A stretch of 64,000 nt of DNA, from positions 186,001 to 250,000 of the forward strand of contig JAFXBF010000004.1 in the NCBI GenBank assembly GCA_017516745.1, in the 5' to 3' direction. The first letter of the stretch is position 1. Every line of letters starts with the position of its first letter. Position numbers and translations under genes: made by a program. Below, in pieces: positions 47,267 to 64,000 of this stretch. The notes under the pieces were generated by a model. The model was given only the letters and a program-made list of their open reading frames with translations, was not told the origin of the DNA and did no database searches. Origin of the DNA: Clostridia bacterium (GTDB lineage Bacteria > Bacillota > Clostridia > Oscillospirales > Acutalibacteraceae).

Positions 47267-50248
47267 ATGAGTGACAGTAAAAAAGACTATACAGGCACAA
47301 TTCAAAACTTGCTATATTGCAACCCCCTATACAACTACATAAATAAGGAAAAAGTAAATGTACTTGTTTTCGGATATTCTGGCATCACCGAAAAGTTTAT
47401 TGATTTTGCATTTGAAATGGCTCAGGTCAACGGCTATAAATTGCATATAACTGTAGTTTCTGACGATGCGGATGCAAAAAACGAATACCTTAAGGCTAGA
47501 CCGGCGTTCCGCAAGTTCTTTAGTGTTGATGACGAAGTTGTGGATGATAACTATGGTATACTGTCATTTGACATTATTACATTCGGAAATATCGAAGATG
47601 ATTTATCAGAAATATTGCTAAATGACGAAAGCAACAAGTATGCCTATTTGTTTATTGGATCAGATAATGACGATTTGAATTCAAGAATTGCAAAAGTTTG
47701 TGTGGATTGCAGAAAATTGCTAGACACTAATTTCGTTGTAAACTGCCTCTCCGAGAACGGCAAAAATGAAGACGGCGTTAATTATGTTCATAGGGATGAT
47801 TCCATAGAAAGCCATAAGGATTACAAGACTCTTAAATCAATGGCATTTAATTGTCATCTCGTGTGGAACTACTCAAAGCTGCTTGATATGCGGAAACTGC
47901 AACGGCAATTTTTGTCTGATTATAATTATGTTGCCTGTCTAAGCTATGTTATCTCTCTGAAATACAAACTTGCAAGTGTCGGCATAGATTTTCTCGATTC
48001 CGCCGCTCCTGAGAAGTTCGACCGCTTAATAAATTCGAAGGCACCAACCGACAAAAAGTCTATTGAGGATATGGTCGCCAACGAGCATAAACGCTGGAAT
48101 GTGAATATGATATGCCGAGGCTTTAAAACTGCTGAGTCGCTGGAAAATTTTATCAGCGGAAAGGAAAACAAGGCGAACGGCTATCACCCTTGTTTGGTAA
48201 GAGGTACAGGGGTTCCGGTATTGAGCACCGATGAATGGAAAAAGAAGAATCGAGATAAATGGGAAAACTGTTCAAACAAGGATTTACAAGCACTAGATGA
48301 GCTTGACAGAGTTTCTGTGCTTTTGCATAAGGAATATACCAAACGCGCCAATAAAATAAAGCGTGAGAACATCATCCTCCAATCCGATATTGATATTATT
48401 AACAAACTACTCGAAAGTAACGGAAAAGCAAAAAATGCTTTTGATAAGTACTATATCTGTCTCCAGGAAATCAGTGCTGGGAACAGTGCCAAAACTGCGC
48501 TTTATGATCACTATTATTCTGCCCTGACCAGGGAGTTAAATAATGTTCCGGTAAATCAGGCAAAAATAGTTCGCAAGCGTATAAATGTTCTTGCTGCTTC
48601 TTTCAACGCAATACTGGAAAGTGAAAAATATATTGATTACAAGCAATATGATGTTGACTTAATTAAAAAAATTCCGTTCATTCTTACCTACAAGTCTAAT
48701 CTGCACATCGGAATACCGATTGATTTATTTAATATCAAGCCATCTGTCAACACAGCGGCGTTTCGTGTTGTTGAATCAGCTTTGCTTATCAATCCTTCCA
48801 AAATTTCATACATATGCGAATTTGAAAGAAGCGATTTGAATAATTTGATAAAGATACTTGAGTATGCCATAAAAAGTATGGATTCGCATCACTTGAGATC
48901 GGTAATCAATATTTGTCTTTTGACAAGCTATCCATTATCCGAACAGGACACAAAAATGATTACCGATATCTCCAACCGTATTCATTCTATTGACTTCATT
49001 AAAAGTGAAGAGGAATTTGTCGAGTATTCCAAAAAGAAACATCTTCAAATTTTTGAATTCAACCGCACAAGGTCATCATCAATACTTGAACGGTATGAAT
49101 ACTGCTGCAAATCCAATTATAAATACAATCGCAGCACCAATAAGTTTGTTGCCACCGGATGTGAAGAAATCAAATACATCTCTTTTGCTCCTTTCTTGAA
49201 AATCAGTGACATCTTCGAGTTTAAGAGTTCCGTTGATGATTACAGTTTTCCTGATATGCAAAAAGACTACAAATATTTCTGGGGCTTGTACAAATCGGTC
49301 GAATTCGGATCAGAAAAGAGATGGAAAGATCTGTGCAGTCTTTTAAGTGCTCAGAACGAAACAAACAAGTTTGAAATCAAGAATCTCGGAGAGGAAAATA
49401 TTATTAAAACATACCTCATTGAAAAAGTATGCCTTGATTCAATTAAGAAACTATGTGTGCAGATTCGTAACGCAAAAGAGTCTATTTCATGCAATATTGA
49501 ACTGTATTCAAACAATTCTTACAGCGTGACCATAAATGCTCCATCGGGATTTCACAAGGTTGTTTCAGACTTGCTTTGTGAAGCCTATAAGCTTTATGAT
49601 CCCAACAGCATAAACATTCGAGTCTTTAAGGGGAAGGCTTACCTTTACTATGATTCACTAAATACCGGGGTTATCAATGCCGGCACAATAAAGAAAGTTC
49701 TTGACCCATTAAATACTACATTTACCGCTATTAAACCGTTACTTGATGAAATTTGTGACAAGGGATATATAAGAAGCCTCACTGGAAATGAAACAAACGG
49801 TATTTCATTCTCGTATAGCACACATCAAGTTAAAGATGTAATGACTCAATCCGGAAGAATACTTGAATTATTTGTTTATTATAAACTCCTTGAAACCGGA
49901 TTGTTTGATGATGTTGCGAATTCCGTGGAAATCCACTGGGGTAGTGATGAAGCAGAAAATGAAATCGACATTATTGCAACACGCGGATACAAAGTTCTTA
50001 TAGTAGAGTGTAAAGCACAAACTGTGCTTATCCAAGATTACTACAACAAGTTAAGCCGTTTAGACAGCGATTATGGACTTAATTCAGTTCCGGTAATTGT
50101 AGCGGATACGCATGGTGTTAAGAAGCACCAAGAAGAAAATAAAAAAATGATGGAAATCGGTAACAGAGTTGGAATACATACTGTTTTTGAGAAAAATGAC
50201 ATTTCTAACATCGGCAGTATATTGGGAAGCATAGTTAAGAATAACTGA
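47267..50248 (+). CDS. Rossmann-RyR protein with C-terminal Card1/Can2-like PD-(D/E)XK nuclease domain
   Basis: This 993-aa protein has three recognisable parts. Residues 28-175 look like a nucleotide-binding Rossmann (TrkA-N-like) domain (VNVLVFGYSGITEKFIDFA, then LFIGSDNDDLNS). Residues 262-350 resemble a bacterial RyR domain (NEHKRWNVNMICRGF, HPCLV, LDELDRVSVLL). The middle is unassigned. Residues 855-993 match a DUF1887-type nuclease as in Card1/Can2: GRILELFVYYKLL, then E899-I-D901 and E914-C-K916. Metal-dependent cleavage of DNA or RNA after binding a nucleotide signal is inferred. It lies between the HTH regulator and the stand-alone RyR gene (18-base gap). Confidence 0.75.
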   Translation: MSDSKKDYTGTIQNLLYCNPLYNYINKEKVNVLVFGYSGITEKFIDFAFEMAQVNGYKLHITVVSDDADAKNEYLKARPAFRKFFSVDDEVVDDNYGILSFDIITFGNIEDDLSEILLNDESNKYAYLFIGSDNDDLNSRIAKVCVDCRKLLDTNFVVNCLSENGKNEDGVNYVHRDDSIESHKDYKTLKSMAFNCHLVWNYSKLLDMRKLQRQFLSDYNYVACLSYVISLKYKLASVGIDFLDSAAPEKFDRLINSKAPTDKKSIEDMVANEHKRWNVNMICRGFKTAESLENFISGKENKANGYHPCLVRGTGVPVLSTDEWKKKNRDKWENCSNKDLQALDELDRVSVLLHKEYTKRANKIKRENIILQSDIDIINKLLESNGKAKNAFDKYYICLQEISAGNSAKTALYDHYYSALTRELNNVPVNQAKIVRKRINVLAASFNAILESEKYIDYKQYDVDLIKKIPFILTYKSNLHIGIPIDLFNIKPSVNTAAFRVVESALLINPSKISYICEFERSDLNNLIKILEYAIKSMDSHHLRSVINICLLTSYPLSEQDTKMITDISNRIHSIDFIKSEEEFVEYSKKKHLQIFEFNRTRSSSILERYEYCCKSNYKYNRSTNKFVATGCEEIKYISFAPFLKISDIFEFKSSVDDYSFPDMQKDYKYFWGLYKSVEFGSEKRWKDLCSLLSAQNETNKFEIKNLGEENIIKTYLIEKVCLDSIKKLCVQIRNAKESISCNIELYSNNSYSVTINAPSGFHKVVSDLLCEAYKLYDPNSINIRVFKGKAYLYYDSLNTGVINAGTIKKVLDPLNTTFTAIKPLLDEICDKGYIRSLTGNETNGISFSYSTHQVKDVMTQSGRILELFVYYKLLETGLFDDVANSVEIHWGSDEAENEIDIIATRGYKVLIVECKAQTVLIQDYYNKLSRLDSDYGLNSVPVIVADTHGVKKHQEENKKMMEIGNRVGIHTVFEKNDISNIGSILGSIVKNN

Positions 50249-50266: not shown

Positions 50267-50584
50267 ATGAAATACGATCCAAAACCTATTGATACAAGTG
50301 ATATTAACCTTCCGAAAGATTTACTGGCTCTTACTGAGAAGATTGCCGAAAACGTGCACGATGTATGGGCTATTGGCAGAATTGCTGAAGGCTGGACATA
50401 TGGGGAAAAGAAGGATGCTGATAAAAAGATCACGCCGCTTCTTGTTCCCTACAGCGAACTGCCTGAGAGTGAAAAGGAATACGACAGGAATACTGCACTT
50501 GAAACAGTCAAACTGATAATAAAGATGGGCTATTTGATTTCTTCAAATCATATTGATGGTGGAGACGCAAATGCAGCTATTTGA
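50267..50584 (+). CDS. Stand-alone RyR-domain protein
   Basis: This 105-aa protein is a near-complete RyR domain: YDPKPIDTSDINLPKDL, ENVHDVWAIGRIAEGWTYG, LLVPYSELPESEKEYDR and TVKLIIKMGYLI. Bacterial RyR domains have been proposed from comparative genomics to bind nucleotide-derived ligands in conflict systems. The C-terminus overlaps the following TIR-LRR-CutA gene by 14 bases, so the two are translated together. AAAGGAAG precedes the start. Confidence 0.88.
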   Translation: MKYDPKPIDTSDINLPKDLLALTEKIAENVHDVWAIGRIAEGWTYGEKKDADKKITPLLVPYSELPESEKEYDRNTALETVKLIIKMGYLISSNHIDGGDANAAI

Positions 50585-52151
50585 GAATTTTATCAGTTAC
50601 AGAAGAAGTGAAACATTATCCGAAGTGCAAAATATATATCACGCATTAACTTCCAAAGGTTATTCTACTTTCTGTGATATATACAGCTTGAAATCAGGAA
50701 GGTTCGATGAAAATCTTCTCAGTATTATTAAGAAATGCACAAATTATATTCTTGTGTTAAATAAGCATTCCCTTGATAGATGTGTTGAGGAGAAAGACTG
50801 GCTGAAATTTGAAATTAAAACTGCCATCAACGCAAAGAAAAATATCATATGTGTATTTGTTGAGGACTTGGATTTCCCTGATTCTCTTCCTCCTGAAATA
50901 GATGATATTCGATATTATAACGGAATCAAGTATGACTTTCTATATTTTACAAGTTTCATTGATTCGCTTTGCTCTCGTTTTCTCGTAAAAGGCAGTGATA
51001 CCGAAATCAGTCGTCCAGAACGCGATTTTTTAATCAATGACTCTGTCCTGATTAGATATTTGGGAAATGCTCCAATAGTGAATATTCCATGTGGTATAAA
51101 GTCAATTGGTCAATATGCTTTTAAGGATAAAACTCAGATTTCGGATATTTCCTTTCCCGAAGGGTTGGAAAAAATAGAGTCCCATGCATTTGAACGCTGT
51201 ATTAATATTACCAACCTTATTTTTCCAGACTCTTTAAAGAAAATTGACGACAAGGCATTTATGCGTTGCTATAACCTTTCATTTATTGCCTTCAATAACG
51301 AAATTGAATCTATAGGAAAAGAATCATTCAGTTTTTGCGGGAAACTTAAAGTTGTAAGGTTTGGTAAAGGAATAAAATCAATCCCCTCGTCTGCTTTTAA
51401 CGATTGCGATAAACTCGCTTTATTTGATGTTGATGAGGAAAACGAATCCTTTTTGACTGTAGATGGAATTTTATATAGCAAAAACGGAAAAAGAATAATT
51501 CGATGTCCTGAAGGGTCTGCTTTCGATTTGATAAATCTACCTGAAACTGTTGAAATCATTGAACCTTGGTGCTTTTCAAAATGCTTAAGCTTGGTCGATG
51601 TAGTCCTTCCTAGAAAACTGAAAGCAATAGGAGCATATGCTTTCAATGATTGTCGAAATATTATAAGTCTCACATTAGGAGATGATATAGAAGAAATTGA
51701 TGTGTCCGCTTTTGATGGTTGGGACAAAGGTCAGAGAGTTATTGTCAGTAAACGGTTTAATCCGTTAATAAAGTATAAGATAGACCAGAAGATAAATGAA
51801 CGTGTAATGTTGGAACATGAAGAATCAACGGATCTGCCGGAGTATATCATGGTGAAAACAACTTTTGAGTCTGTTGAAGAAGCTTCAAAGATGGCGAAAA
51901 TGCTAATAAACAATCGCTACATTGCATCTGCACAACTGGATGAACTAAATGTCTTTTATACATGGAATGACGAATCATGTAATGAAAATGAAATCGAATT
52001 GAATTGCATTACAAGAGGTGCTTTATATGAAAAAGTAAAAACCTTTATAATGCAACATCACTCTTATGAATGCTGTCAAATAATATGTCTTCCAATAGTC
52101 AAAACAACAGATGAATTTGGGCATTGGATTGATGAACAAACAATAAAATAA
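50571..52151 (+). CDS. TIR-LRR-CutA fusion protein
   Basis: This 526-aa protein has three parts. A TIR domain (1-140; ENFISYRRSE, then the candidate catalytic Glu in DWLKFEIKTAI) is typical of NAD-consuming enzymes. Residues about 150-410 are BspA-type leucine-rich repeats (GIKSIGQYAFKDKTQISDI and several LEKIESHAFERC-like units). Residues 424-526 are a CutA-like domain (YIMVKTTFESVEEASKMAKML, FYTWNDESCNENEIEL, HHSYECCQIICLPI). The start at 50571 lies 6 bases after GGTGGAG, inside the RyR gene. A free CutA protein is encoded two genes downstream. Confidence 0.85.
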   Translation: MQLFENFISYRRSETLSEVQNIYHALTSKGYSTFCDIYSLKSGRFDENLLSIIKKCTNYILVLNKHSLDRCVEEKDWLKFEIKTAINAKKNIICVFVEDLDFPDSLPPEIDDIRYYNGIKYDFLYFTSFIDSLCSRFLVKGSDTEISRPERDFLINDSVLIRYLGNAPIVNIPCGIKSIGQYAFKDKTQISDISFPEGLEKIESHAFERCINITNLIFPDSLKKIDDKAFMRCYNLSFIAFNNEIESIGKESFSFCGKLKVVRFGKGIKSIPSSAFNDCDKLALFDVDEENESFLTVDGILYSKNGKRIIRCPEGSAFDLINLPETVEIIEPWCFSKCLSLVDVVLPRKLKAIGAYAFNDCRNIISLTLGDDIEEIDVSAFDGWDKGQRVIVSKRFNPLIKYKIDQKINERVMLEHEESTDLPEYIMVKTTFESVEEASKMAKMLINNRYIASAQLDELNVFYTWNDESCNENEIELNCITRGALYEKVKTFIMQHHSYECCQIICLPIVKTTDEFGHWIDEQTIK

Positions 52152-52163
52152 GGAGGCATTTTT

Positions 52164-52448
52164 ATGCTCGGAGTTGTAGGAAAAATAAAAATCAACTATT
52201 GCTTTCAAAACGAAATTTTTGAAGAAATCATTGATCCTCAGGCGGTTTCAGAGTTCTCATTGGATCACTGCGATAAGGTAAAATTTGTAGTTGAAGAAAT
52301 TGTTTATGTAGAAGATACGGTTTATGGCGTTGTCTTACGCCTAATTGAGCCTAATTATGTTGATGACGAATTTTTTGTAGGAAGCACTAGTGCGAGTTTT
52401 GAAATAAAAGATTTAGGCGTCAACGGAACCATAGCTTTATGTTTTTAA
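52164..52448 (+). CDS. Small beta-rich protein of unknown function
   Basis: This 94-aa protein has alternating hydrophobic strands (VGKIKINYCF, KVKFVVEEIVYV, GVVLRLIEP, ASFEIKDLGVNGTIALCF) and many acidic residues. I recognise no family. AAGGAGG precedes the start. It sits 12 bases after the TIR-LRR-CutA gene and 14 bases before the CutA gene, so it is part of the same transcription unit and may be a subunit or an immunity-type partner. Confidence 0.75.
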   Translation: MLGVVGKIKINYCFQNEIFEEIIDPQAVSEFSLDHCDKVKFVVEEIVYVEDTVYGVVLRLIEPNYVDDEFFVGSTSASFEIKDLGVNGTIALCF

Positions 52449-52462
52449 AGGAGAAATTGATA

Positions 52463-52777
52463 ATGAGTAAATATTGTATTGTGATTACTACAATTGGCAA
52501 TGAAGAGGATGCACAAAAAATAATCAGCGAAGTGCTTAACTGCAAATTAGCTGCATGTATGCAAACATTAGATATAGGTAGCCATTATATTTGGGATGGA
52601 GATGTTTGCCATGATAGCGAGATTCTTGTTCTTTTTAAGACTTCATGGGCTTTGTACGATGAACTTGAAGTAAAAATTAAGGAATTGCATCCATATGATA
52701 CACCGGAAATAATTGCTGTGGATATCAAGAAGGGTTTCAAAGGGTATCTTGATTGGATTGATGATGTGACTAAATAA
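52463..52777 (+). CDS. cutA: CutA1-family protein
   Basis: This 104-aa protein is a full CutA1: YCIVITTIGNEEDAQKI, CKLAACMQTLDIGSHYIWDGDVCHDSE (over strands 2-3), LVLFKTSWALYDELEVKIKELHPYDTPEIIAVDI and YLDWI. CutA1 trimers share the ferredoxin-like fold of PII proteins; their true role is unsettled (metal tolerance was the first proposal). The codon use is AT-rich like the island. Its place two genes after a TIR-LRR-CutA fusion suggests a trimer or heterotrimer with it. ATG 52463 follows AAAGGAG. Confidence 0.92.
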   Translation: MSKYCIVITTIGNEEDAQKIISEVLNCKLAACMQTLDIGSHYIWDGDVCHDSEILVLFKTSWALYDELEVKIKELHPYDTPEIIAVDIKKGFKGYLDWIDDVTK

Positions 52778-52822
52778 TATGCTCTGTGAGCTCATTTTTT
52801 ATTACGGGTGTGGTGAAAAGGT

Positions 52823-53884
52823 ATGCGATTTAAATTTGATTTGTTTATATCTTATGCAAGTGAAAATAAAGACATTGCCGATTACATAGTAGATAAAATC
52901 GAGAGACGTGGTTTTAAATGTTTTATCGCGCCCAGAGATATTAGAACCGGCAGCGAATATGCAGTGGAAATAATCAGAGGAATCAGCAATTCAACAGCAG
53001 TATTACTTGTTTTTTCTAGCAAATCAGACAAGTCTCATTATGTTCTCCGAGAAATTAATTCTGCTGTATCGCGTAACCGCCCAATTATTCCTCTTAGAAT
53101 AGAAGATTTCCTTCCGTCTGAGGCGATGGAGTTCTATCTGGGACCTACTCATTGGCTGGATGCTTTTCCTGCGGTGCTTGATGTTCATTTGGATAAAGTG
53201 GTTGCTATCTTTTCTGGGATGAACAACACGGTCGCAGAAGTAAAAGATGAGAATTATAGAATAACCGGACCGGAACTTATAAAGATCGAGGACATTCCCC
53301 AAATAGGTCTAGATTATACTGCCCTCACTATGAAATTGATAGAAATTGATTATCTATGTATCCCTTCCGATTTCTACAATATGAATGAATATATCGAGGG
53401 AACATTTGAAGATTGGAAACAGACAACAAAAGCCTACGGAAATGATTCAGCAATTTTGCTTGTCAAAAATGATAATGTGATTGGTTATTGCGAAATGTAT
53501 CCTGTGATTGAAGATGCATATTCCAAACTTATTTCCGGACAAGTTATTATTCGGGATTCTATGATTGATCTGTTCTGTATGGGAGGAACTTTTGACGTCT
53601 ATATTGCCATGGTTGGGGTTGTCCCGGAGGAAGCAACGCAAGCAAATCATCTGATGATCTTTGATTGGATATTCCAGCACTTGGATGAATGGGACGAAAA
53701 CGATGTTCATGTGAACAGAGTGGGCATTTCCGTTTATTCCGATATGCTGGAGAAGTTTATAAAAAGGTTTGGATTTGAGTATCGCAGTTTAAATCCCGCA
53801 AAAGGAAAAGTGTTTGAAACCACGGTCGATAAATTAAAGAGTAATCCTTTAGTGAAAAAGAGATATCCGAAGTTTTGCAAATAA
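52823..53884 (+). CDS. TIR-GNAT fusion protein
   Basis: This 353-aa protein has a TIR domain at 1-130 (FDLFISYASENKDIADYIVD, FKCFIAPRDIRTGSEY, candidate catalytic Glu in HYVLREINSAV). Residues about 160-350 look like a GNAT acetyltransferase (AILLVKNDNVIGYCEMYPV, VYIAMVGVVPEEA, MLEKFIKRFGFEYRS); the acetyl-CoA loop is not clear. One part could make or use a nucleotide signal and the other modify a partner. It follows the cutA gene by 45 bases. Confidence 0.8.
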   Translation: MRFKFDLFISYASENKDIADYIVDKIERRGFKCFIAPRDIRTGSEYAVEIIRGISNSTAVLLVFSSKSDKSHYVLREINSAVSRNRPIIPLRIEDFLPSEAMEFYLGPTHWLDAFPAVLDVHLDKVVAIFSGMNNTVAEVKDENYRITGPELIKIEDIPQIGLDYTALTMKLIEIDYLCIPSDFYNMNEYIEGTFEDWKQTTKAYGNDSAILLVKNDNVIGYCEMYPVIEDAYSKLISGQVIIRDSMIDLFCMGGTFDVYIAMVGVVPEEATQANHLMIFDWIFQHLDEWDENDVHVNRVGISVYSDMLEKFIKRFGFEYRSLNPAKGKVFETTVDKLKSNPLVKKRYPKFCK

Positions 53885-53906
53885 GATTATGGCTTGGAGG
53901 TGAAGT

Positions 53907-54676
53907 ATGTTTAATGGCGAGTGTTGGATATTTCTGACTCATCATAGTCAGGATATCAAAAAAGTTCGATTGATACGAAACGAATTTGAACGATTGGGTC
54001 ATAATCCTTTAGCGTTTCACCTTAAATGTCTGAACTTTGATACGGAAGAAGAAAAAAAGAATTAGACAGCTTAATAAAACGTGAGATTGATGCCAGACAG
54101 TGGTTTATATTTTGCGACAACCCTTATTTATATTCCGAGTGGGTCGAGATGGAAAAGGCGTACATAATAGATCAAGGGAAAGATTTTATTTGGAAAATAG
54201 ATATGACTGCTGATACGGAAGCCATTTTAAACAAAGTAAGAAAAATCTGCATGGATATAGAAGTGTTTATTTCTTATGCGCATTGTGATCGTGAAATAGT
54301 ACAGCCTTTGATAAAAGCGCTTTCCGACAGAGACTATTCTGTATGGACTCCCGATAACAAAATTAATGCGGGCGATAATCTGACTGAGCAGATTTACGAT
54401 GCCATAATTCGCTGTGCTTACAAGGGATTCTATATTGTCGTCATTAGTGAAGAAAGCATAAAATCATCGTTTGTAACAAATGAGCTTGCATTTGCAACCT
54501 CACAAGGTGCATTGATTGTACCAGTTGTTATCGGCAACCCGAATATTCCGGATGATATACGCGCATGGATAGGCAAATATCAACAAGTACGGTTATCCCC
54601 AACGGAAGCTGATTTTAACTGGGTCGGTGATATGCTAGATTCCGTTATAGCCAAAAAGATTGCAAATCTGTCTTAA
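53907..54676 (+). CDS. Tandem-TIR protein, reading frame joined by a -1 shift at A AAA AAG
   Basis: The frame opened by ATG 53907 (GGAGGTGAAGT upstream) codes for CWIFLTHHSQDIKKVRLIR and stops at 54063-54065. The -1 frame continues without a gap to 54676, giving a 256-aa product if shifted at 54053-54059. The first half is a TIR-like domain (WFIFCDNPYLYSEWVEMEKAY, with Glu). The second is a standard TIR (DIEVFISYAHCDREIVQ, VWTPDNKINAGDN, SFVTNELAFATSQG). Programmed frameshift, slippage, mutation or an assembly error could explain this. Without the shift only a 52-aa peptide is made from the first ATG; a 175-aa second-TIR product could start at ATG 54149. Confidence 0.7.
54053..54059 (+). promoter_or_regulatory. 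Candidate -1 frameshift site A AAA AAG
   Basis: The A7-G string at 54052-54059 places A_AAA_AAG in exactly the phase needed for tandem slippage in the zero frame (AAA at 54054-54056, AAG at 54057-54059). It is the classical efficient bacterial heptamer. A purine-rich CGGAAGAAG lies just upstream and could act like the dnaX-type stimulatory Shine-Dalgarno. The zero-frame stop TAG is 4 bases downstream. No strong downstream stem was found by eye. Confidence 0.55.
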
Positions 54677-54706
54677 AACAATGAAACTCCGGGGGTGTAA
54701 TCCTTT

Positions 54707-55749
54707 ATGAAAAAAAGATGTTCCTTAGTTCTTGCCATGAAGATTCCAGTAAAGTTAAAAAATTTGCATTTCTTCTTTCATTGCGTGGCTTTGAGTTATG
54801 GATGGATGAAAAAAACATAACAAGTGGGGATAACTATACCACGAGGATTTTAAATGGAATTCACGATTCTGACATATATCTTGTTTTCTTATCATCGGCA
54901 TCATTAAAGTCCACTTGGGTTGGAGCAGAAATAGATTTTGCTCTTCGTGAAAAAATAGAAAGAGGGAAACTCGTTATTGTGCCCGTTTTACTCGAAGAAG
55001 TTGAAATACCAGTATCGCTCTCAAATATAGATTATTTAGATGCAAGATTCTCAATACAAAAAGCTATTGAAGAATTGTCAGAAAAATATCAAGGAGAGAA
55101 AATAGAACACAACGAATTTGTTGTCTCAAGCGTAGCATTTTCTATTTCAGAAGACACCTCTGTACAAGTTGGCCCTTTTCACGAATCGATAACGATGGAT
55201 GATTTAAAGGAAGATCGACAGAGGGTGTTATCTGATTTAAGAAAAAAAGCATACGGAATCTTGATGAATTTTGTTTCTGCTACTGATTTTGACTTTCGAT
55301 CAGAAAAACCTAAGTTTACAAATGGATTATATGAAGAAAGTGTCATTAAAAAAGAAGGAAGCACAAATGGCAGTATTTGTGAACGTGTCACTGTAGAGAC
55401 TGTTGTGTATAATCCGTCTATGGCTAAGGTAAACAGATTGATGAAAGAACGTTTGGAGATTTTAAATATAAACGCTATTACTCTCGGCTTTTCATTACCT
55501 CTAAAAGATGGCGAATCGATGCTGGATGTTGGAAAGCGATGCTTTAAGAAAATACAAGAAGACTACATAATACTCTCCTACGATTCAACTGATGGAGCAA
55601 AGATTGAAATAGCTGCTGATTTTTATCTTTCTTTGCTTTTTTCGGAGGAGATTATGAAAGTAAAATTGACCACAAAGTACAGTTTTCAGTTTGAGAAAAA
55701 AATGAAGGAGTTCTCAGTTTTTGCATTTATCAGAGAACTACTTGAATAA
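54707..55749 (+). CDS. TIR-domain protein with unknown C-terminal domain; start interrupted by an A7 tract
   Basis: The open frame from ATG 54718 gives 343 aa. It begins inside the TIR first strand (MFLSSCHEDSSKVKKFAF) and has candidate catalytic Glu in TWVGAEIDFAL. The best ribosome binding site (GGGGGTG, 54691-54697) serves ATG 54707, which is out of phase by one base; one extra A in the A7 at 54710-54716 would make M-K-K-K in frame. Residues about 130-343 are an unrecognised alpha/beta domain (VNRLMKERLEILNINAITL, KVKLTTKYSFQF). Real initiation is either slippage from 54707 or weak initiation at 54718. Confidence 0.78.
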
Positions 55750-55820
55750 TGTAATATAGTATAGAATCGCCAAAAAGAATGAATTGGTATCGAAAATAAT
55801 AATAAAGGGGACTTTATGCT

Positions 55821-56990
55821 ATGGATAACAATAATTCTGATAGAACACGATTGGATGAATTGCTCCGCAAGTACCGCAATGGAGAAATCTCTGAAAAGGA
55901 ACTCACCGAAGAACAGATTGTTTCCTTGGGGCATCTTTATGATAAAAAAATAAGAGAACAAAAAGCCAGTAACAGGAGTCGACTGCAGACCATCAATGCA
56001 TGGTTGGAAACTCATTCTTCAGATTATGATATCGTATCCCAAATTCGAGATAAAATATCGGATACTCCTCTTTCCTCTGAAGGTAAGTCTTTGACCAGTT
56101 ATTATCTGAAAGATAATCCAACCGGGACAGGATTGGATTTGTTTGATGGGCTCGATTATCTTGCTACATATCAGTCTTATGAAGAATGCATTAGCGATAT
56201 GTCATTTCACCTCTCTATTGTCGATTTTGATACGCTGATTAATATGTTTGCAAGAAAAGATATTTCGGTTCGTGCGCCATATCGTTATCGAGCCGTTTGT
56301 TCTGAATTATTTTGCCCACTTGAAAAGGTTTTTCGATATGTTTACTATGGTGATTCTCTAACATCCATTCTTGAGAGAGTCGAGTGCATAGAGAAAAGAA
56401 GCATTACTCATCCAGATTATTTCGTTTTTGGTATCCAAGGAATCGCAATACACCTTTTTGATGAAAGTGATCTGAAGTACAAATTCTGGCTTGGCGGAAA
56501 CGAATTCCGCTGTGTATCTGATGTTATCAAGGCGGCTCACGATGAGAATAAGTTTGTCCCCAATGAATTAATTGCAGAACTTACTGAACTGAATCGCGTT
56601 GATGTTTTTATCTCGCATAAGAGCGAAGACTTTGTCAAGGCAAAGCGTGTTTATGATTATCTCGTTTCCAACGGCATCCCAACCTTCCTTTCCGAAATGT
56701 CTCTGCCCGCTTTGTCTAATGCTGACTATTCTGCGGAAATAGACAAGGCCCTTGAGAAGGCAAGCAACATAGTGGTAATAGCTACATGTAAGGAGAATGT
56801 GCTATCAGGTTGGGTTCAATATGAGTGGAGCGCTTTTGCTAATGAAAAGCGCTCGGGAAGAAAAACAGGAAACATTATCACTTTGATTGATGATAAAATG
56901 GCGATTGCAGATTTACCAATACTGCTGCGCCAGTTTGAGGTCATTCCGTTGGAACAATTAGAGGCTATAAATGGTTTCTTGAGGATGTAG
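55821..56990 (+). CDS. TIR-domain protein with novel N-terminal domain
   Basis: In this 389-aa protein, residues 1-60 are charged helices (LDELLRKYRNGEISEKELTEE is one helical hairpin). Residues about 60-255 form an unrecognised, mostly helical and Cys-containing domain (YLATYQSYEECISDMSF, RAVCSELFCPLEKVFRYVY). Residues about 258-389 are a TIR (RVDVFISHKSEDFVKAKRV, candidate catalytic Glu in GWVQYEWSAFANEK, then a CIRC-like hydrophobic end). AAAGGGG precedes the start. The N-terminal part may be the sensor. Confidence 0.82.
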   Translation: MDNNNSDRTRLDELLRKYRNGEISEKELTEEQIVSLGHLYDKKIREQKASNRSRLQTINAWLETHSSDYDIVSQIRDKISDTPLSSEGKSLTSYYLKDNPTGTGLDLFDGLDYLATYQSYEECISDMSFHLSIVDFDTLINMFARKDISVRAPYRYRAVCSELFCPLEKVFRYVYYGDSLTSILERVECIEKRSITHPDYFVFGIQGIAIHLFDESDLKYKFWLGGNEFRCVSDVIKAAHDENKFVPNELIAELTELNRVDVFISHKSEDFVKAKRVYDYLVSNGIPTFLSEMSLPALSNADYSAEIDKALEKASNIVVIATCKENVLSGWVQYEWSAFANEKRSGRKTGNIITLIDDKMAIADLPILLRQFEVIPLEQLEAINGFLRM

Positions 56991-57126
56991 AGAATCTTTT
57001 TCTCATTGTAATACATCCGTTTTTGACTTTGTTTGAACAGTAGTTTTATATTTAATTATTCCACAAAATATTGAACTGTGGTTATGAAATAAGAAGAATA
57101 TAATTCAAAAATAGGATGTGTGAAAA

Positions 57127-60100
57127 ATGATTAATGGGATAATACAATCGACTAATGCGGATGTTTTTCTGTCTTATTCGCATAATGACAGTGCCTTGGT
57201 GGAAAGAATTGCTGAAACGATTCATAAATCGGGTTTTTCTTGTTGGATTGATAAAGACGAATTGCGCGCCCAGGAAAACTTTAATGCCGCAATAGATAGT
57301 GCTATTGACAAATCAATTGTCTTTATAGCATTTCTCTCTAAGACTTATGTAAATAAGCCCTATTGTATTCATGAATTTGACCGAGCAATCGATAAGCAGA
57401 AGAGCATCTTGGCTGTTTGTATAGACGATGTAAACGAAAGCACAAACAGGCAGAACGCCTATCTGTTCTCATTTAGCGCTGGTCATAATATTCTTGGCTT
57501 TGGCTCTGGAGTTGATGATAGTGATTGTAGCATTGAATCATTTGCCCAAGAAATTATAGCCAGTGTTCCTATGGAGCAATTAAAGAGGTACTCGGTCAGT
57601 GGCGATAAAAACGATTATCCTCCTGTCAGTACTCCTGATTATATTATTTCTCGTTTACGCCTTTATCATGAAAGGCAATACGAGCAGAGCGGAAACTATG
57701 CCTTAAATGAAATAAGAAGTGAATTGTTTCCTGCGATTAGAAACTCAGAAATAAATATATTGTATAAAGACGACAACAAAAAGAATGTATCATTAGTTGA
57801 ATTCTTCTCCGAAACAGACGGACAGGCAGATCATGACAAGCACATATTAATTACTGGCGAAGGAGGAATGGGAAAAACTGTTTCTTTGCTGAAGACGTGT
57901 GAATATCTGCTCAGCAAAAGAATAAATGCAATTTATGTTCCGCTTAGCAAGATAGATGCGGATATGACCCTGGATCAGTATCTGGAGCGCATTGTATGCG
58001 GCGGCAATCAAAGAATATGGAGAGATATAAAAGATCTGATGAGCGCTCCGTACGCTACGGTTCCGAATGTTGTTCTATTGCTGGATGGTATTAATGAAGT
58101 CTCTTTGAGTTATATGGAAAAATTTGTGAAGAGAGTTATTAAATCAACCTATATCGATGGTTATTGCGGCATCAAACTTGTTATGACATCAAGATGGTTT
58201 GATAATTCTTTAATGCATCGCATTAAAGAGAATGTTATATCACTTGAGATGCAGGCGTTGGACAGAGAATCCATTGAATTATATTTACAAAACATGGGCC
58301 TTCCGGTTGTGTTAGATGAGAAAGTGTTGTCTGTCATAAGAACCCCATTGATGTTGACATTGTTCTCAGACGTTGAGAGACATAAGAATAAATATCAGAA
58401 TATCGAAGGCATTGCTCTTGAGGAAAACCCTGATACCGCCGGTAAAGTATTAAGCAATTTCTTTCAAACGCAACTATATCGGGCCGCTGAAGAAGAAAGT
58501 TTTGACAGAGCAGCTCATCTTGTGTTATTGGAGTACCTGCTACCCTCTATAGCATACAAAATGCTTGAAAAGCAGCATATGTACTTAAGCCAAGATGAAG
58601 TGTGGGACAGTATTGATGAAATAAATGATGATTGCAGCAGATATACCTGGTATAAGAGTGATAAACTCCGTAAGCTTATCCGTGGAAGAAGTCGCATTAA
58701 TGCTGATTCACTGATCGATCTTGCAGAGAATTCATTGCATTTTCTGCACAAGTCAGATTCCGGCTATGAATTTTTACATCAGAGCTTCCGTGATTACTTT
58801 GCTGCATTCCATATTTCAAATGAGATGAATGCACTGGCAAAGGAGTCCGGTCGTTTGGATGAAGCAGAGTCCGTTCTGGAACAGAATATATATCCTGATG
58901 AAATTCTCGGATTCGTTTCAGACATCATCCACGAAGAGAATGCACGCCCGACATTGACAGAGCAAGGCTTGTGCTTCTTTGAAAAAGAAAATATATCAGA
59001 ACCTGGAAAAAGCATTGCTGAGCAGTTGTTGTCGTTGTGGAGAAACAAGGAGGGCGAATCTGCTCGGAATGCAGTGGCCAACATAATAAACATTATGAAA
59101 ATCGGTCGCAAGAACGTTTTGGCCTGGTGTGATTTTTCAAATCTTGATCTCAGAAAGTGTTGGCTTAATAAGTGCCGCTTTACAGTATGGTATGAGGATA
59201 AATATTATCCCAGTATCTTTGACGGTGCCTGGATAGACAGGGCGAATTTCCTGACTGACGGGCATGAATCACAAATAAGTGCAATTGTTTCGGACGGCAT
59301 TTCACGGGTTTTTAGCGGAGACACAAACGGAGTGGTTAAGTTTTATAGCATAACCCAGCGAGCCTGGACGGATTCAATACAATTGCAATCCAGTGCTGTT
59401 GTTGATCTTGCCTGGAACGGCAGAAATGACCAGCTGGCCATTATGTATGAAAATATTGTATTCTGCTATTCTGTCAAAGAAAAAGCTGTTGTAAGCAGCT
59501 ATGGTAACAGTGGTAAAAGCAAAAATTTCAGATATGTTCAGTTCACTGAAGAGAACGAGCTCAATATTTCGTTTGATTTAGCGCCTTTGGTCTGGTGCGA
59601 TGTTCACGGGGAAGAGCTCTCATCAGATCTGCCGTATGATGTTCCGGCAAGATGTGCAAAATGGAATCCTGCAAGAAAAGAGTTCATCAGAAGCAATATG
59701 CTGCAGCTGATCTCGGTAGCCCATTTTGATGAAAGCACTCTTTCATGGGAACTTCCTCCGTCCTTGAAAAAGAAATTGGATGAAGATAACCGGTTGCGTA
59801 TGGAGGCTCAGGAGAAAATGAGATCTGTGCAATATCTCAGTTTAAGAGATGCCGGTGCCACAGGAGCCGGAAGTGTATGCTGTATTCAGTATAATGAAGA
59901 TGGTTCGAGAGTTCTGGTAGCCATTCAAAGCTTGCTGATTGAGTATGATACAGAATCTTTTGATGTGCTGAAAAAGAAAGCCTTCTCTGCTAATGTACAG
60001 TGTGCATGTTATTTAGAAAACGGATTCGCCGTTGGTTCCGGTTCTAGTTTGATAATTTTAGATTCGGGTTTTTCAGAAGAATCGATATTACAAGGATCAC

Positions 60101-60600
60101 AAATAAAACCGATAGGTGTTGTTTCTGAAGATTATGAGGGAAATGGGTATTATTTATTTTCTTCAAATGGAGAAGTAAAAAAACTGAATCATGACCTGAT
60201 AGTTCAGAATATGCGGTTTGCGGGAAATAAAACTGGTTTTGTATGGGTTCGTGACAGACTGACACAGGATATCCAGATGGCATTTTTGCCTTGGAAACAG
60301 TATCCGTTCGGAGTGCGGTATTCCTATGAAACGGATCATATCGAGCCTCTGGGATGGAGATATGAGTTTGTTGATTTTCCTGTGGATTGTGACGAGGATG
60401 AGCAACGTCTTTATAAGATGGATTCATCTTTGTTGGCAATAGAGCGGGTTCCGCCATATCGGAAGATTATCCATACCAATTACAGCGGTATCTGGATTTT
60501 TAGGTGTTCATTTAATAGTATCCGCGGAGATATAGGCAATCACCGGAATATCAGTTTTTTGATTCAGAATGGAGGCATAGTTTATGATGTCAATGAATAA
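57127..60600 (+). CDS. TIR-NACHT-beta-propeller STAND ATPase
   Basis: This 1157-aa NLR-like protein has three parts. TIR: residues 8-150 (ADVFLSYSHNDSALVERI, candidate catalytic Glu in PYCIHEFDRAI). NACHT: Walker A GEGGMGKT at 244-251, Walker B LLLDGINEVS with D320, and sensor VMTSRWFD, followed by the helical STAND regions (YEFLHQSFRDYFAAFHI). Beta-propeller: residues about 700-1140, with WD40-like repeats (DGHESQISAIVSDGISRVF, SGDTNGVVKFYS). Bacterial NACHT proteins sense phage and trigger abortive responses. The 136-base gap before it holds a TATAAT (57099-57104) without a correctly spaced -35. The next gene overlaps by 17 bases. Confidence 0.9.
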   Translation: MINGIIQSTNADVFLSYSHNDSALVERIAETIHKSGFSCWIDKDELRAQENFNAAIDSAIDKSIVFIAFLSKTYVNKPYCIHEFDRAIDKQKSILAVCIDDVNESTNRQNAYLFSFSAGHNILGFGSGVDDSDCSIESFAQEIIASVPMEQLKRYSVSGDKNDYPPVSTPDYIISRLRLYHERQYEQSGNYALNEIRSELFPAIRNSEINILYKDDNKKNVSLVEFFSETDGQADHDKHILITGEGGMGKTVSLLKTCEYLLSKRINAIYVPLSKIDADMTLDQYLERIVCGGNQRIWRDIKDLMSAPYATVPNVVLLLDGINEVSLSYMEKFVKRVIKSTYIDGYCGIKLVMTSRWFDNSLMHRIKENVISLEMQALDRESIELYLQNMGLPVVLDEKVLSVIRTPLMLTLFSDVERHKNKYQNIEGIALEENPDTAGKVLSNFFQTQLYRAAEEESFDRAAHLVLLEYLLPSIAYKMLEKQHMYLSQDEVWDSIDEINDDCSRYTWYKSDKLRKLIRGRSRINADSLIDLAENSLHFLHKSDSGYEFLHQSFRDYFAAFHISNEMNALAKESGRLDEAESVLEQNIYPDEILGFVSDIIHEENARPTLTEQGLCFFEKENISEPGKSIAEQLLSLWRNKEGESARNAVANIINIMKIGRKNVLAWCDFSNLDLRKCWLNKCRFTVWYEDKYYPSIFDGAWIDRANFLTDGHESQISAIVSDGISRVFSGDTNGVVKFYSITQRAWTDSIQLQSSAVVDLAWNGRNDQLAIMYENIVFCYSVKEKAVVSSYGNSGKSKNFRYVQFTEENELNISFDLAPLVWCDVHGEELSSDLPYDVPARCAKWNPARKEFIRSNMLQLISVAHFDESTLSWELPPSLKKKLDEDNRLRMEAQEKMRSVQYLSLRDAGATGAGSVCCIQYNEDGSRVLVAIQSLLIEYDTESFDVLKKKAFSANVQCACYLENGFAVGSGSSLIILDSGFSEESILQGSQIKPIGVVSEDYEGNGYYLFSSNGEVKKLNHDLIVQNMRFAGNKTGFVWVRDRLTQDIQMAFLPWKQYPFGVRYSYETDHIEPLGWRYEFVDFPVDCDEDEQRLYKMDSSLLAIERVPPYRKIIHTNYSGIWIFRCSFNSIRGDIGNHRNISFLIQNGGIVYDVNE

Positions 60601-61789
60601 TATAAGCGTTTCTTTCCGTGCGGTCAATGCTCAGGGGGATTGTTTTGCAGATATTGTACTACCGCTCTCCGGTAATAAGATTTCAGACTTTAAGGTCAGG
60701 CAGGGCCCCGGTGGAGGAATAATGATACATATGCCCGCTGATATGGGGACTACATGGATCTTTGAAGAAATTGAATGGGCAGATGTCCGGAAACAAGTAA
60801 CTGAAGAATACAGACGATTGATTAATAATCTGCCCATATTTGTGAAGTTACATAGTTTTGATGAAAAGAATAATTGTCTGGCTGATATAACGCTTCGTGA
60901 AACAGGCGTCGCTATCAGTGATTTTAAGGTGATGGTGGGACCCGGTGGCGGTGTTATGGTGCATATGCCGTCATGGATGCATACCAGATGGTCATACACC
61001 GAGATCCAATGGAGTGAAGTGCGTCAGATAATAACACGGGAATACATTTCTGCTGTTTCTGCAAGAAAACAGTCGGGTGAAGCAATCACAGATTCGGCTC
61101 CGACAAAAATCTGCACTTTCTATTCGTCAGCTGTAAAGACGGAGGCTGATGCTGCAGTAACTTTAAATTCCTCAGGAGAACAGCTTGAGGGTATTCATCT
61201 CGTGCACACAAAAGACAGGGGCAGTATACAGGTTTTTGTCTCTGAGGAGACAAACTGTTTCCTGAACAATACCGGCATGGAGTGTGCCGTGTTGGTTGAG
61301 ATGGTCTCAAATGAATACAGACGGCAGATGTTGCAGGAGGATTGTGAAGATATCTCTGATTCTGTCACTGTAAAGTTCCACAACATCCAGGAAGTGACAA
61401 CTTGTCTTGTTGATATTAATCTACCACATAAGAAAAACATAATAAAAGGATTCAGAATAAGGGAGATAAAGAGTGAGGAAAGGATTATTATTTCAACGCC
61501 AAAATGGATGGAGCGATGGAATGATAACAGAGTAACTTGGTATGATTTATGCGAATTAATAACAAATGAATACAATAACTGTTACCATACAGAAGAGAGT
61601 AAAGACGAGGAAATTCAGGATACACCGATCAGTTCAGTGGTTTTGACTGAGAGTAATGAGACCGTTGATGAATGTGTTTCAGTCGAACAAACTTCTAAAC
61701 AACCAGCTAAAGAAAAAAACGAGTTCGGACGCATAAAGAATGCCGAAAACTCTTCTTTTATTTTCTATCCTATCCGAGAACTGTGTTGA
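60584..61789 (+). CDS. Protein of four SpoVG-like tandem repeats
   Basis: This 401-aa protein is made of four homologous units of about 75-80 residues (near 5-80, 84-162, 170-250 and 262-340). Units 1 and 2 show it best: a first strand (SVSFRAVNAQGDCFADIVLP), then ISDFKVRQGPGGGIMIHMP, then a helix ending VTEEYRR. This resembles SpoVG (strand, DIKVIEG, VAMPS, helix EAYE), which binds nucleic acid in Firmicutes; the match is by eye. Units 3 and 4 are diverged. A Ser/Thr/Glu tail follows. GGAGG lies 8 bases before the start, inside the NACHT gene. The stop overlaps the next start. Confidence 0.78.
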   Translation: MMSMNNISVSFRAVNAQGDCFADIVLPLSGNKISDFKVRQGPGGGIMIHMPADMGTTWIFEEIEWADVRKQVTEEYRRLINNLPIFVKLHSFDEKNNCLADITLRETGVAISDFKVMVGPGGGVMVHMPSWMHTRWSYTEIQWSEVRQIITREYISAVSARKQSGEAITDSAPTKICTFYSSAVKTEADAAVTLNSSGEQLEGIHLVHTKDRGSIQVFVSEETNCFLNNTGMECAVLVEMVSNEYRRQMLQEDCEDISDSVTVKFHNIQEVTTCLVDINLPHKKNIIKGFRIREIKSEERIIISTPKWMERWNDNRVTWYDLCELITNEYNNCYHTEESKDEEIQDTPISSVVLTESNETVDECVSVEQTSKQPAKEKNEFGRIKNAENSSFIFYPIRELC

Positions 61790-62784
61790 GGGCGGTTGCC
61801 TCTTATGAAAGTAGCGGTCCGGAGGCTAAACGGAAGCTCTTTGATTTGGTTTCTGCTCTTAACAGGGGGGCTTTAGGCGGTATAGGTCCGTTTGAAATAA
61901 ACATCCTGGAATGGATCGCAAAGCTTCGCTATGTTACAAGCACGATGCTGGTTGACCTTATAGAGGCAGGATATGTATCATTTGGTTGGCGCAGTGGAGT
62001 TACTCAGGCAAAATTAGCTAAGATTATAGACAGAATGGCAGATTACCAATTGATTACATTAACCAGATTCGTAACGGTAAATGATGACGGAGGTTTTGAT
62101 GCAAATAATTACTCTATAATGAGAATAATTACATTGGGCAGAAACGGCAGCATTCTTTTGCATGAATTGGGTAAAAACGCTACAAGATACAATGCTTTTG
62201 ATGTTTTTCAGGATGGTAATACGGTTAAACGGTTTCTGACTGCAAATCAGTGGCTGATTTACTGGTTGAAGACTTACAAGGATGAAATAGGTGATAATTA
62301 CGAAACGCACTGCATTATCCATCTGAAGGGTGCTGAGTTTGTGGGGGCAAGAATATATGCCACCGTAACCATAAATGATTGTCCGATGGTAGCAGAGCCG
62401 GTTAGACGCGTAGAAGAATTTGAGATTGAAAAAAATAAGCAGTGGCTCCGTGAAAAAATTGAAAGACTGTCTCTGATGTTTGATAATCTGGATCAGCTTT
62501 ATCATGGTAAGGATGAGTTCAGTTTGCCTCAGCATCCCATAATAGTCCTTGTTTGCGAAGATGACGAACACATGCTCGAAACATGGGAGGTTGTTAAGCT
62601 GCTGCCTGAAATTGAACATCAGGAGATCTGGTTCTCCAGTGACCTCAGGATTTTCAATTATAACAGAAGGGGAGAAAGATTTCTGCGGTTTATTGATGAT
62701 ACGCCTTGTCCTGTCGAATTAAGAGAGGTTTTGGGGATAGATAACGAGATAGACAGCATCACTCCCATGACGGATGAATCATAA
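61783..62784 (+). CDS. Winged-helix protein resembling replication-relaxation (MobC-like) factors
   Basis: In this 333-aa protein, residues 30-130 form winged-helix segments (ILEWIAKLRYVTSTMLVDLI, KLAKIIDRMADYQLITLTRF) and residues 150-300 an alpha/beta part (HPIIVLVCEDDEHMLETWEV). The arrangement recalls Replic_Relax/MobC proteins, some with a nuclease-like fold, but the key PD-(D/E)XK residues are not clear. The start is GTG 61783 (or TTG 61786), overlapping the upstream stop by 7 bases; no ribosome binding site is seen, so it depends on coupling. It is part of the TIR-NACHT operon. Confidence 0.65.
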   Translation: MLRAVASYESSGPEAKRKLFDLVSALNRGALGGIGPFEINILEWIAKLRYVTSTMLVDLIEAGYVSFGWRSGVTQAKLAKIIDRMADYQLITLTRFVTVNDDGGFDANNYSIMRIITLGRNGSILLHELGKNATRYNAFDVFQDGNTVKRFLTANQWLIYWLKTYKDEIGDNYETHCIIHLKGAEFVGARIYATVTINDCPMVAEPVRRVEEFEIEKNKQWLREKIERLSLMFDNLDQLYHGKDEFSLPQHPIIVLVCEDDEHMLETWEVVKLLPEIEHQEIWFSSDLRIFNYNRRGERFLRFIDDTPCPVELREVLGIDNEIDSITPMTDES

Positions 62785-62810
62785 CGATTACAATAATATG
62801 AGGTAAAAAC

Positions 62811-64000
62811 ATGCTGAACGAAGATTATCACAAATTGATCCATGAAGTAGATCAATTATCTAAATGTATTGAAGAAACTATCCAATTAATTCACAGGGTA
62901 ATCGAGGATGTTTTGATTTTCTTGGGTAATAATGATGGGGGTCGTGTTTGTATCGATGCCTACAATACGGCTATTCAAATTCTTGAAGAGGTAATAAATA
63001 ACAACGAAATACTTTACAAAGCCGCGGAAGCCTATTTGTGTTGTTATTCTGAATCAAACTCTCGGATTGATTTCGGTGCCATGTCGCAATTAATTAATCA
63101 AAAAGAGTGTGTGCCAAATGAAAAAGACGATATTACCGCAGGAAAATCAGCAGAGAGAAGGAAGGCGCTTGTAGATGCATTGGGAACAGGTCAGCCAATA
63201 ATGGTTGATTTAGATAGGACAGACTCTATAACCTCCGACAATTCTAATGAGCAATCAAATGTTTCGGACTCAGTAAATGCTTGCGGCGATGATGTTTTTG
63301 AAGCAATTACTGTACCAAGCGGGAAACTTGCCGGGGGGGACAGATGCCGCATCTGTGATACCCCGGTTTTCGCTGACACAGTATTCTGTCCGAAATGCGG
63401 AAGCAAAATCGTAATTGAAAAGTCGGCTGTACAACTATCTCAGGTTGAGTTTTCTGCTATTGCACCGAAGCAAATTGTGAAAGGCGAATATTCTATCATT
63501 GATATTGTTATGTATGAAGAAGCATACAGACATATTGTTGATGAAATTCATAGCCAATCAGAAACAGAAGCTCAAGAGAAGAAATCCGGAAAGATTAGGG
63601 TCACAACAGAAGCAAATATAAAAGTCGTCTTGTATTCAAACGATATTGAAATTGAAGATAATGAAATGACCGGAGTATGGCAGAATTCGTATTTGAACTT
63701 TTCATTTCCGATTTTTCTGCCGGATAATTATTCGAAAAAGCAAGTTCTGTTTGTAGCAAAGATTTTTATTAATGACATTATCGCAACAAGACTCACTTTC
63801 ACAGCGAGGTGTTCTTCGTTATTTGATCAAAAAATCAATGTTATACGTGAAGACGTACTGACTGCTTTTATATCCTATGCGAGCCAAGATAGAAAAAAGG
63901 TTGCTACCATTGTTCAAGGTATGCAAAAAGCCCGTCCTGATATGGATTTGTTCTTTGATGTTGAAAGTCTCAGAAGTGGAGAGAATTGGGAAAAGACTCT
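62811..64000 (+). CDS. Zinc-ribbon/TIR protein, cut by the window edge
   Basis: An open frame from ATG 62811 runs to the window end (396 complete codons). Residues 1-80 are helical. Residues about 180-200 are a zinc ribbon (CRICDTPVF, then FCPKCGSK). Residues about 215-345 form a beta-rich domain (SIIDIVMYEEAYRHIVDEI, NIKVVLYSNDIEIEDNEM, VLFVAKIFINDIIATRLTF). From about residue 350 a TIR begins (VLTAFISYASQDRKKVATI, DLFFDVESLRSGENWEK); the Glu is beyond the edge. AGGTAAAAAC precedes the start, 26 bases after the winged-helix gene. It is the fourth gene of the NACHT operon. Confidence 0.8.
   Translation, partial: MLNEDYHKLIHEVDQLSKCIEETIQLIHRVIEDVLIFLGNNDGGRVCIDAYNTAIQILEEVINNNEILYKAAEAYLCCYSESNSRIDFGAMSQLINQKECVPNEKDDITAGKSAERRKALVDALGTGQPIMVDLDRTDSITSDNSNEQSNVSDSVNACGDDVFEAITVPSGKLAGGDRCRICDTPVFADTVFCPKCGSKIVIEKSAVQLSQVEFSAIAPKQIVKGEYSIIDIVMYEEAYRHIVDEIHSQSETEAQEKKSGKIRVTTEANIKVVLYSNDIEIEDNEMTGVWQNSYLNFSFPIFLPDNYSKKQVLFVAKIFINDIIATRLTFTARCSSLFDQKINVIREDVLTAFISYASQDRKKVATIVQGMQKARPDMDLFFDVESLRSGENWEKT

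Follow-up and report, generated by a model that had tools for sequence, protein, structure and literature searches.

A TIR-LRR-CutA fusion gene paired with a free CutA gene in Clostridia and its comparison with known TIR and PII-like systems

Described TIR and TIR-related systems provide the closest points of comparison for a gene pair in a 64,000-nucleotide stretch of a Clostridia bacterium genome (contig JAFXBF010000004.1 of assembly GCA_017516745.1, positions 186,001 to 250,000 of the forward strand), which is referred to here as the window, and in which a gene fusing a TIR domain, leucine-rich repeats (LRR) and a CutA domain is followed by a gene for a free CutA. CutA belongs to the PII-like superfamily. 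In the het-B system of Podospora anserina (Bh/Bp), according to the available part of PMC10890737, cell death is controlled by a TIR-related HET protein, which has a lectin fold, together with a PII-like protein encoded next to it; the same part reports 89 adjacent PII-like/HET pairs in Pezizomycotina and names gammaproteobacterial (Pseudomonales) PII-like proteins as the closest homologs of Bp outside that group. The present locus is similar in that a putative death protein with a TIR-related domain lies beside a PII-like gene, whereas het-B, as described there, is fungal, has HET instead of TIR and a lectin fold instead of LRR, and keeps its PII-like domain separate from the death protein. 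As the HET domain (Pfam 06985) had no match on the fusion at E <= 0.05 in Pfam, where TIR_2/TIR matched instead, the locus resembles the het-B type without belonging to it.

The second comparison is with the nicotinamide adenine dinucleotide (NAD+) hydrolases SARM1 and TIR-1. The available text of PMC7282519 states that E642 of SARM1 is required for NAD+ hydrolysis, that the prokaryotic TIRs examined need the equivalent glutamate, and that TIRs generally need self-association, with a SAM octamer oligomerising SARM1, while autoinhibition by the ARM domain is described in the accessible part of PMC8494770. Likeness lies in the nearest solved TIRs by sequence, an aligned glutamate and a built-in oligomerisation domain; that domain is SAM in SARM1 and would be CutA here, and LRR plus free CutA would stand in place of ARM autoinhibition. 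With Thoeris there is a weak, partial match to the PADLOC ThsB model (E 3.8e-6, residues 7-90 of the fusion), and the NCBIfam model of its type III protein ThcB4 scored the fusion TIR at 21.5 bits (cut-off 220). By eye, the lists of open reading frames (ORFs), in which no dedicated ThsA search was made, showed no effector gene shared by the modules described below. PADLOC and NCBIfam hold no model covering the fusion, its pairing with CutA or a 94-residue protein encoded between the two genes. Membership of the CutA1 family (PF03091) is indicated by profile matches of both copies and the modelled fold of the fused one; the fused copies differ in forming a separate divergent clade without the canonical K, P and C.

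CutA is not mentioned in the available part of PMC12881547, and a CutA form of TIR control was found nowhere in print in the literature searched, which was open-licence and lacked most subscription papers. The remark of a first-pass annotation, made from the sequence alone, that no described immune system is known to use CutA stands, within that literature, for control of a TIR by CutA, TIR systems themselves being known, but not for the broader theme, since a TIR-like domain with a PII-like protein is already known in fungi from het-B. We read the gene set as a mobile two- or three-gene immune module, probably of the abortive-infection kind, in which the CutA pair would act as an oligomeric switch, and give this reading a probability of roughly 0.55.

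A conserved unit of sporadic occurrence

Five homologous modules were found: in the window, in two other Clostridia metagenome-assembled genomes, in one Bacilli metagenome-assembled genome and on one conjugation-gene contig in IMG/VR (Table 1). Over their full length the other four fusions are 72, 64, 53 and 50% identical to the window fusion, and the corresponding free CutAs 66, 60, 53 and 50% identical to the window free CutA. All eight pair members in these four records exceed the PF03091 cut-off, and the free CutA lies downstream of the fusion in every module, in constant order. The fusion and the free CutA form a conserved unit that occurs sporadically. The genuineness of the fusion, as proposed in the first-pass annotation, is borne out by its presence in all five modules, and a chance reading is excluded because four homologous modules share the same gene order. 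Of six loci returned by one scan, three (L097-L099) matched LRR residues only and were left out of the module count.

The window fusion, read from its ATG (the ORF list sets the start at TTG 50553), carries Pfam TIR_2 at residues 7-115 (E 6.6e-10, 40 bits, cut-off 28), LRR_5, and CutA1 at residues 426-522 (E 2.6e-20, 72.5 bits, curated cut-off 22.4), the last coinciding with the region (residues 424-526) that had been annotated as CutA by inspection. CutA1 was matched by all five fused members at E <= 0.001. When a profile of the fused domain was searched against the PDB, 29 distinct sequences were obtained at E <= 0.01 (best 6.6e-16), 26 of them named CutA or divalent-cation tolerance protein and three of them designed proteins, so that profile search agrees with the proposed assignment. 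The free copy matched CutA1 with 111.1 bits (E 2.4e-32, cut-off 22.4), as measured on the longer frame that begins at 52439; translation more likely starts at the ATG preceded by AAAGGAG, exactly 311 bases past the fusion stop, the distance at which a complete CutA1 had been reported.

Table 1. Features of the window module and its neighbour, and the four other records that carry the module
Feature or record	Position	Strand	Basis or source
TIR-LRR-CutA fusion gene, 526 aa	50571..52151	+	ORF; Pfam TIR_2, LRR_5, CutA1; full-length homologs in four other records (50-72% identity)
TIR domain, aa 1-140	50571..50990	+	nearest solved relatives SARM1 TIRs, E 2.5e-18; WLxxE in 5/5
Putative catalytic glutamate E81 of the fusion TIR	50811-50813	+	aligned with SARM1 residue 642
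BspA-type leucine-rich repeats, aa 150-392	51018..51746	+	LRR_5 E 8e-47; model confidence (pLDDT) block means 80-95 at residues 151-390
Fused CutA domain, aa 425-522, divergent	51843..52136	+	Pfam, Foldseek, column counts
Predicted all-beta accessory protein, 94 aa, no named family	52164..52448	+	homologs similarly placed in L094 (44% identical) and L095 (41%)
Free CutA, 104 aa, canonical residues intact	52463..52777	+	CutA1 E 2.4e-32; AAAGGAG before start; canonical columns
RyR-domain protein, neighbour outside the conserved core	50267..50584	+	RyR E 1e-35; overlaps fusion start by 14 bases
L074 (genome G1070)	fusion 10426-12015, CutA 12026-12340		taken to be JAKSRG010000035.1, Clostridia bacterium, horse faeces
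L094			CALWCE010000004.1, uncultured Clostridia; module found by scanning with two fusions
L095			JAFQRV010000022.1, Bacilli, goat colon; module found by scanning with two fusions
L100			IMGVR_UViG_3300035502_000938; module found by scanning with two fusions

The window genome (2.89 Mb) contains exactly two CutA matches, both in the module, and in each of the other four records the pair likewise accounts for all CutA matches at E <= 0.001 (G1130 is just a 42.5 kb contig, and completeness is not given for G1128 and G1129). CutA is rare among the sampled genomes of this lineage, with matches at E <= 1e-8 in 3 of 398 from the family, in 4 of 394 from the order, in 19 of 391 from the class (including G955 and G1112, which have partial matches only) and in 24 of 398 from the phylum; these samples overlap, each contains the window genome, and the three family genomes are those with a near-full-length CutA. 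A CutA match within a frame of more than 500 residues occurred only in the window genome and in that of L074, with a free copy adjoining in each, the remaining matches at this threshold lying in open frames of 63-304 residues (stop-to-stop lengths). With a profile of the fused C-terminal region, the module was recovered in 1 of 115 genomes of the family of G1070 and 1 of 15 of that of G1129, in both cases the query genome itself. For a control, a TIR profile was built from ten TIRs of the window, L094, L100 and L074; it detected TIR ORFs at all five module loci and at none of 23 CutA loci without a fusion (3.3-19 kb, two from one genome).

Wider searches yielded little. The fused domain as sole query returned no confirmed relative from genome or viral contigs, and further viral-contig scans gave the L100 contig again and one LRR-only match. 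Neither the fused CutA domain nor the TIR had a match in phage records; the free CutA retrieved three at 33%, namely two contigs of Salmonella, in which an annotated CutA1 adjoins DsbD, and a 3.3 kb record without annotation. In plasmid records the fused CutA domain had 17 matches at 22-30% identity (ten annotated cutA, seven without a named feature), and full-fusion queries gave mostly LRR matches, with no record at 80% coverage. In 59 relatives, a full-length search brought up predominantly other BspA LRRs and hence is no evidence for the module. Seven TIR ORFs in nine stretches of the window genome and its relatives, judged by eye, included no TIR-LRR protein.

TIR active site, the two CutA copies and the small protein

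In a single-sequence PDB search at E <= 0.001, the fusion TIR retrieved 19 SARM1/TIR-1 rows and one pentatricopeptide protein, and in the alignment with the SARM1 chain 7knq_A (724 residues) E81 falls opposite residue 642. Both W77 and E81 are invariant and the WLxxE motif is kept in all five modules, so that, by alignment, the TIR retains a SARM1-type catalytic glutamate throughout. Mean pairwise identity across modules is 63% for the TIR, 54% for the LRR, 61% for the fused CutA and 43% for the linker. Nonsynonymous and synonymous divergence (dN, dS) of the TIR were 0.17 and 2.66 in the single pair of four where dS could be estimated; no dN/dS ratio is claimed, because dS is saturated in many pairs.

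The AlphaFold model of the fusion (single chain, five-row alignment) has a mean predicted local distance difference test score (pLDDT) of 75, with LRR blocks at 80-95, CutA blocks at 67-86 apart from one at 59, and low values at residues 411-420 ahead of the CutA domain. Foldseek on this model retrieved LRR proteins and CutA1 structures, and the C-terminal part superposes on 1uku with a template modelling score of 0.95 by target length and a root-mean-square deviation of 1.1 Å, so the fused domain is predicted to have the ferredoxin-like fold of CutA.

The two CutA copies were compared in a tree of 53 rows, from which L055 and L071 (repeats of the L074 pair) and L069, L070, L072 and L073 (partial or interrupted) had been dropped. 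The fused domains form one clade (support 100/99) on a long stem, and the free CutAs fall within a 17-row clade (97/96) alongside 12 other CutAs of the sampled genomes. Both sets separate window, L094 and L095 from L074 and L100, a division that matches the presence of the small protein. A join of L068 to the fused clade carried a long-branch warning and an unsettled bootstrap, and was not used. Distances within the fused and free sets are correlated (r 0.75), a value reached by the true pairing alone among 120 orders.

Residues C40, K67 and P89 (free numbering) are kept in 44, 45 and 43 of the 48 non-fused rows, including all five free copies of the modules, whereas the fused rows uniformly have S, I/F and C at these columns (S453, I480 and C502 in the window). 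The fused CutA keeps Y50, W52, E61, H84, Y86 and W106 in all five cases (Y463, W465, E474, H497, Y499 and W519 of the window fusion). Since fold residues are kept and canonical residues lost, the fused copy seems to retain the fold and to have left the canonical surface; as judged from the columns, it is a divergent CutA1 variant without the family-conserved C40/K67/P89, and we infer that the lost residues may line the ligand site. The fused and free profiles align by hhalign over 106 columns without gaps (E 1e-19), which makes co-assembly easy to imagine.

The ORF between the two CutA genes, absent from the first-pass annotation, encodes a protein of 94-99 residues in the window, L094 and L095, and is not present in L074 or L100. 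The window protein had no Pfam match at E <= 5, was found in one of 97 relatives searched (the window genome itself) and had no match among the viral contigs searched. Its AlphaFold model, from just three sequences, is all-beta with a mean pLDDT of 88.6 and showed no clear fold match. One of the three proteins matched Pfam AGS_C (SMODS C-terminal sensor domain) at E 0.0069; such a likeness would point to a nucleotide-sensing role, but the match is too weak for use. In the window, gaps of 12 and 14 bases precede the small gene and the free CutA, each of which follows a sequence resembling a ribosome-binding site, and the downstream partner starts 10-14 bases past the preceding gene in four of the five modules. 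A promoter and terminator scan performed no better than shuffles.

Mobile surroundings and neighbouring genes

Relaxase, recombinase or conjugation genes are present on the contig in four of the five cases, and the gene set is probably mobile. L074 has a MobA/MobL relaxase and a serine recombinase upstream, the recombinase directly so, and L094 has a Mob_Pre relaxase upstream and a serine recombinase downstream. Both L100 and the window contig carry genes for a type IV secretion system (T4SS) coupling protein and ClpP, which in the window contig lie, together with a NikA/MobC-like gene, about 20 kb or more past the module; because of this resemblance, the filing of L100 as a virus in IMG/VR is doubted. 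In L095, an IS110-type transposase (L095:12350-13180) follows the small gene and precedes the free CutA; 1608 bases with this element inside set the free CutA apart from the rest of the module, all three ORFs remaining open. Guanine-cytosine (GC) content is 0.34 in the window module and 0.45 in the window outside it; for L094 the two values are 0.33 and 0.50, and the contrast is small in L074 and L100.

Upstream of the window fusion, a protein with a Card1-like endonuclease domain (47267-50248, PADLOC CARF_PDDEXK models) precedes the stand-alone RyR protein, and these two genes and the fusion possibly form one transcription unit. Upstream of the four remaining modules, in ORF lists in which no RyR search was made, no RyR-domain gene was recognised by eye. 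Seven of the 14 TIR_2 matches of the genome lie within about 14 kb (window 50571-64000 and L004:6811-8289). Among the proteins encoded in this stretch are a TIR protein (52823-53884) whose C-terminal half resembles a GNAT-type acetyltransferase by eye, Pfam giving TIR-type models only; a TIR and NTPase/WD40-like protein (57127-60600) with NACHT and WD40 matches below curated cut-offs; and a 401-residue SpoVG-like protein (60584-61789) with internal repeats by eye (Pfam 27.5 bits, cut-off 29.6). A C-terminal-TIR protein (window 62811 to L004:8289) is 54% identical over 374 residues to L100:12137-13864, which sits just after the L100 module, so that what these two conjugative-type elements have in common goes beyond the CutA module; both proteins have a cysteine-rich stretch that looks zinc-ribbon-like by eye. 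In L074, a Macro domain (L074:16490-17002, E 7.4e-49) lies 4.1 kb after the module, and an ORF 0.5 kb after it (L074:12814-13158), whose start resembles the Macro ORF by eye, is apparently a truncated copy; the two flank a TIR protein whose zinc-ribbon match is below cut-off. An ADP-ribose-binding partner in L074 is conceivable.

A possible CutA switch, rival explanations and significance

It is possible to combine these observations in one scheme. The TIR would hydrolyse NAD+ once several TIRs are brought together, and the CutA domain, a trimer-former by family, would serve as a built-in oligomerisation device. The free CutA, with canonical residues, may co-assemble with the altered fused domain and set the oligomeric state; most likely it would dilute and silence fused subunits in mixed trimers, or bind a nucleotide-like ligand. 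On infection, sensed by the LRR or by ligand-bound free CutA, the assembly would shift, TIRs would cluster, NAD+ would be depleted and the cell would stop, with the 94-residue beta protein as an optional regulator of one subtype. A putative sensor role of the LRR, put forward in the first-pass annotation, would fit its BspA type and its lowest conservation among the three domains. The parts of the scheme differ in strength: an immune or cell-stopping function of the TIR is quite probable, a role of CutA as oligomeric switch is somewhat favoured, and mixed trimers of fused and free CutA, which the first-pass annotation had suggested might gather the TIRs or keep them inactive, are a tentative proposal; its interpretation is supported in part. 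About as tentative is a new prokaryotic class of immune switch, in which the composition or ligand state of mixed trimers of paralogous fused and free CutA would gate SARM1-like TIR clustering and NAD+ loss.

Several points weigh against the scheme. Only five modules are known, the biochemical role of CutA is unsettled, and the model is weak in the TIR, where pLDDT block means are 34-70. The free CutAs do not form a clade of their own, the L074 and L100 copies grouping with the 12 ordinary CutAs (94/88) apart from the other three, so that recruitment or replacement of the free gene may have happened repeatedly; co-divergence of fused and free copies speaks for co-inheritance and not for contact, and five points in two groups make a weak test. 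L095 has only an insertion sequence nearby and no GC contrast (0.26 in module and remainder). Because the flanks examined of L094 and L095 contain no other TIR, the argument from a defence neighbourhood rests on the window, L100 and L074.

The main rival, though unlikely, is a guard arrangement as proposed for fungal het-B, in which the fusion would read through its LRR a changed state of a separate homotrimeric free CutA, itself a metabolite sensor or phage target, while the fused CutA merely trimerises the receptor and no mixed trimer forms. Canonical residues retained in the free and lost in the fused copy would suit it, as would the variable LRR and the scattered free CutAs, as if the receptor watched whichever CutA it was given; the available part of PMC10890737 holds that the C-terminal domain of the het-B HET protein determines recognition of its PII-like partner. 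It leaves unexplained, however, a receptor carrying a CutA domain homologous to its partner, and the gapless alignment of the two copies makes co-assembly easy to picture. Improbable, by our estimate, is a toxin-antitoxin-like pair stabilising the element, with defence secondary, in which the fusion would be a constitutive TIR NAD+ hydrolase (NADase) neutralised by the free CutA and perhaps the small protein: a small, mostly close-set downstream partner in all modules and the mobility genes on four contigs agree with it, but a simple toxin would not usually carry a large conserved LRR, and the L095 insertion has split off the free CutA with the ORFs open.

That CutA acts here as a divalent-metal protein and the module in metal stress is very improbable; the family name alone suggests it, deletion of cutA in the cyanobacterium Synechococcus gave no metal phenotype and did not support a role in metal tolerance, according to the available part of PMC7694984, and neither the TIR catalytic glutamate nor the sporadic mobile carriage agrees with it. 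Equally hard to credit is a scaffold or signalling remnant without NADase activity, whose TIR would serve for docking only. The low TIR confidence and the predicted nature of the NADase activity leave room for it, but the invariant W77 and E81, the TIR being the best conserved domain and its low dN beside a high dS in the one estimated pair all oppose it.

CutA is widespread and its function is unsettled, and its conserved pairing with a TIR-LRR receptor offers a testable role, that of a trimeric regulator of a TIR enzyme; with two or three genes, the module is small enough to be transferred and tested directly. If true, the switch reading would provide a bacterial counterpart of fungal HET/PII-like allorecognition and a concrete biological job for CutA. 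Together with het-B, it would suggest that control of TIR-like death domains by trimers of the PII superfamily recurs across kingdoms.

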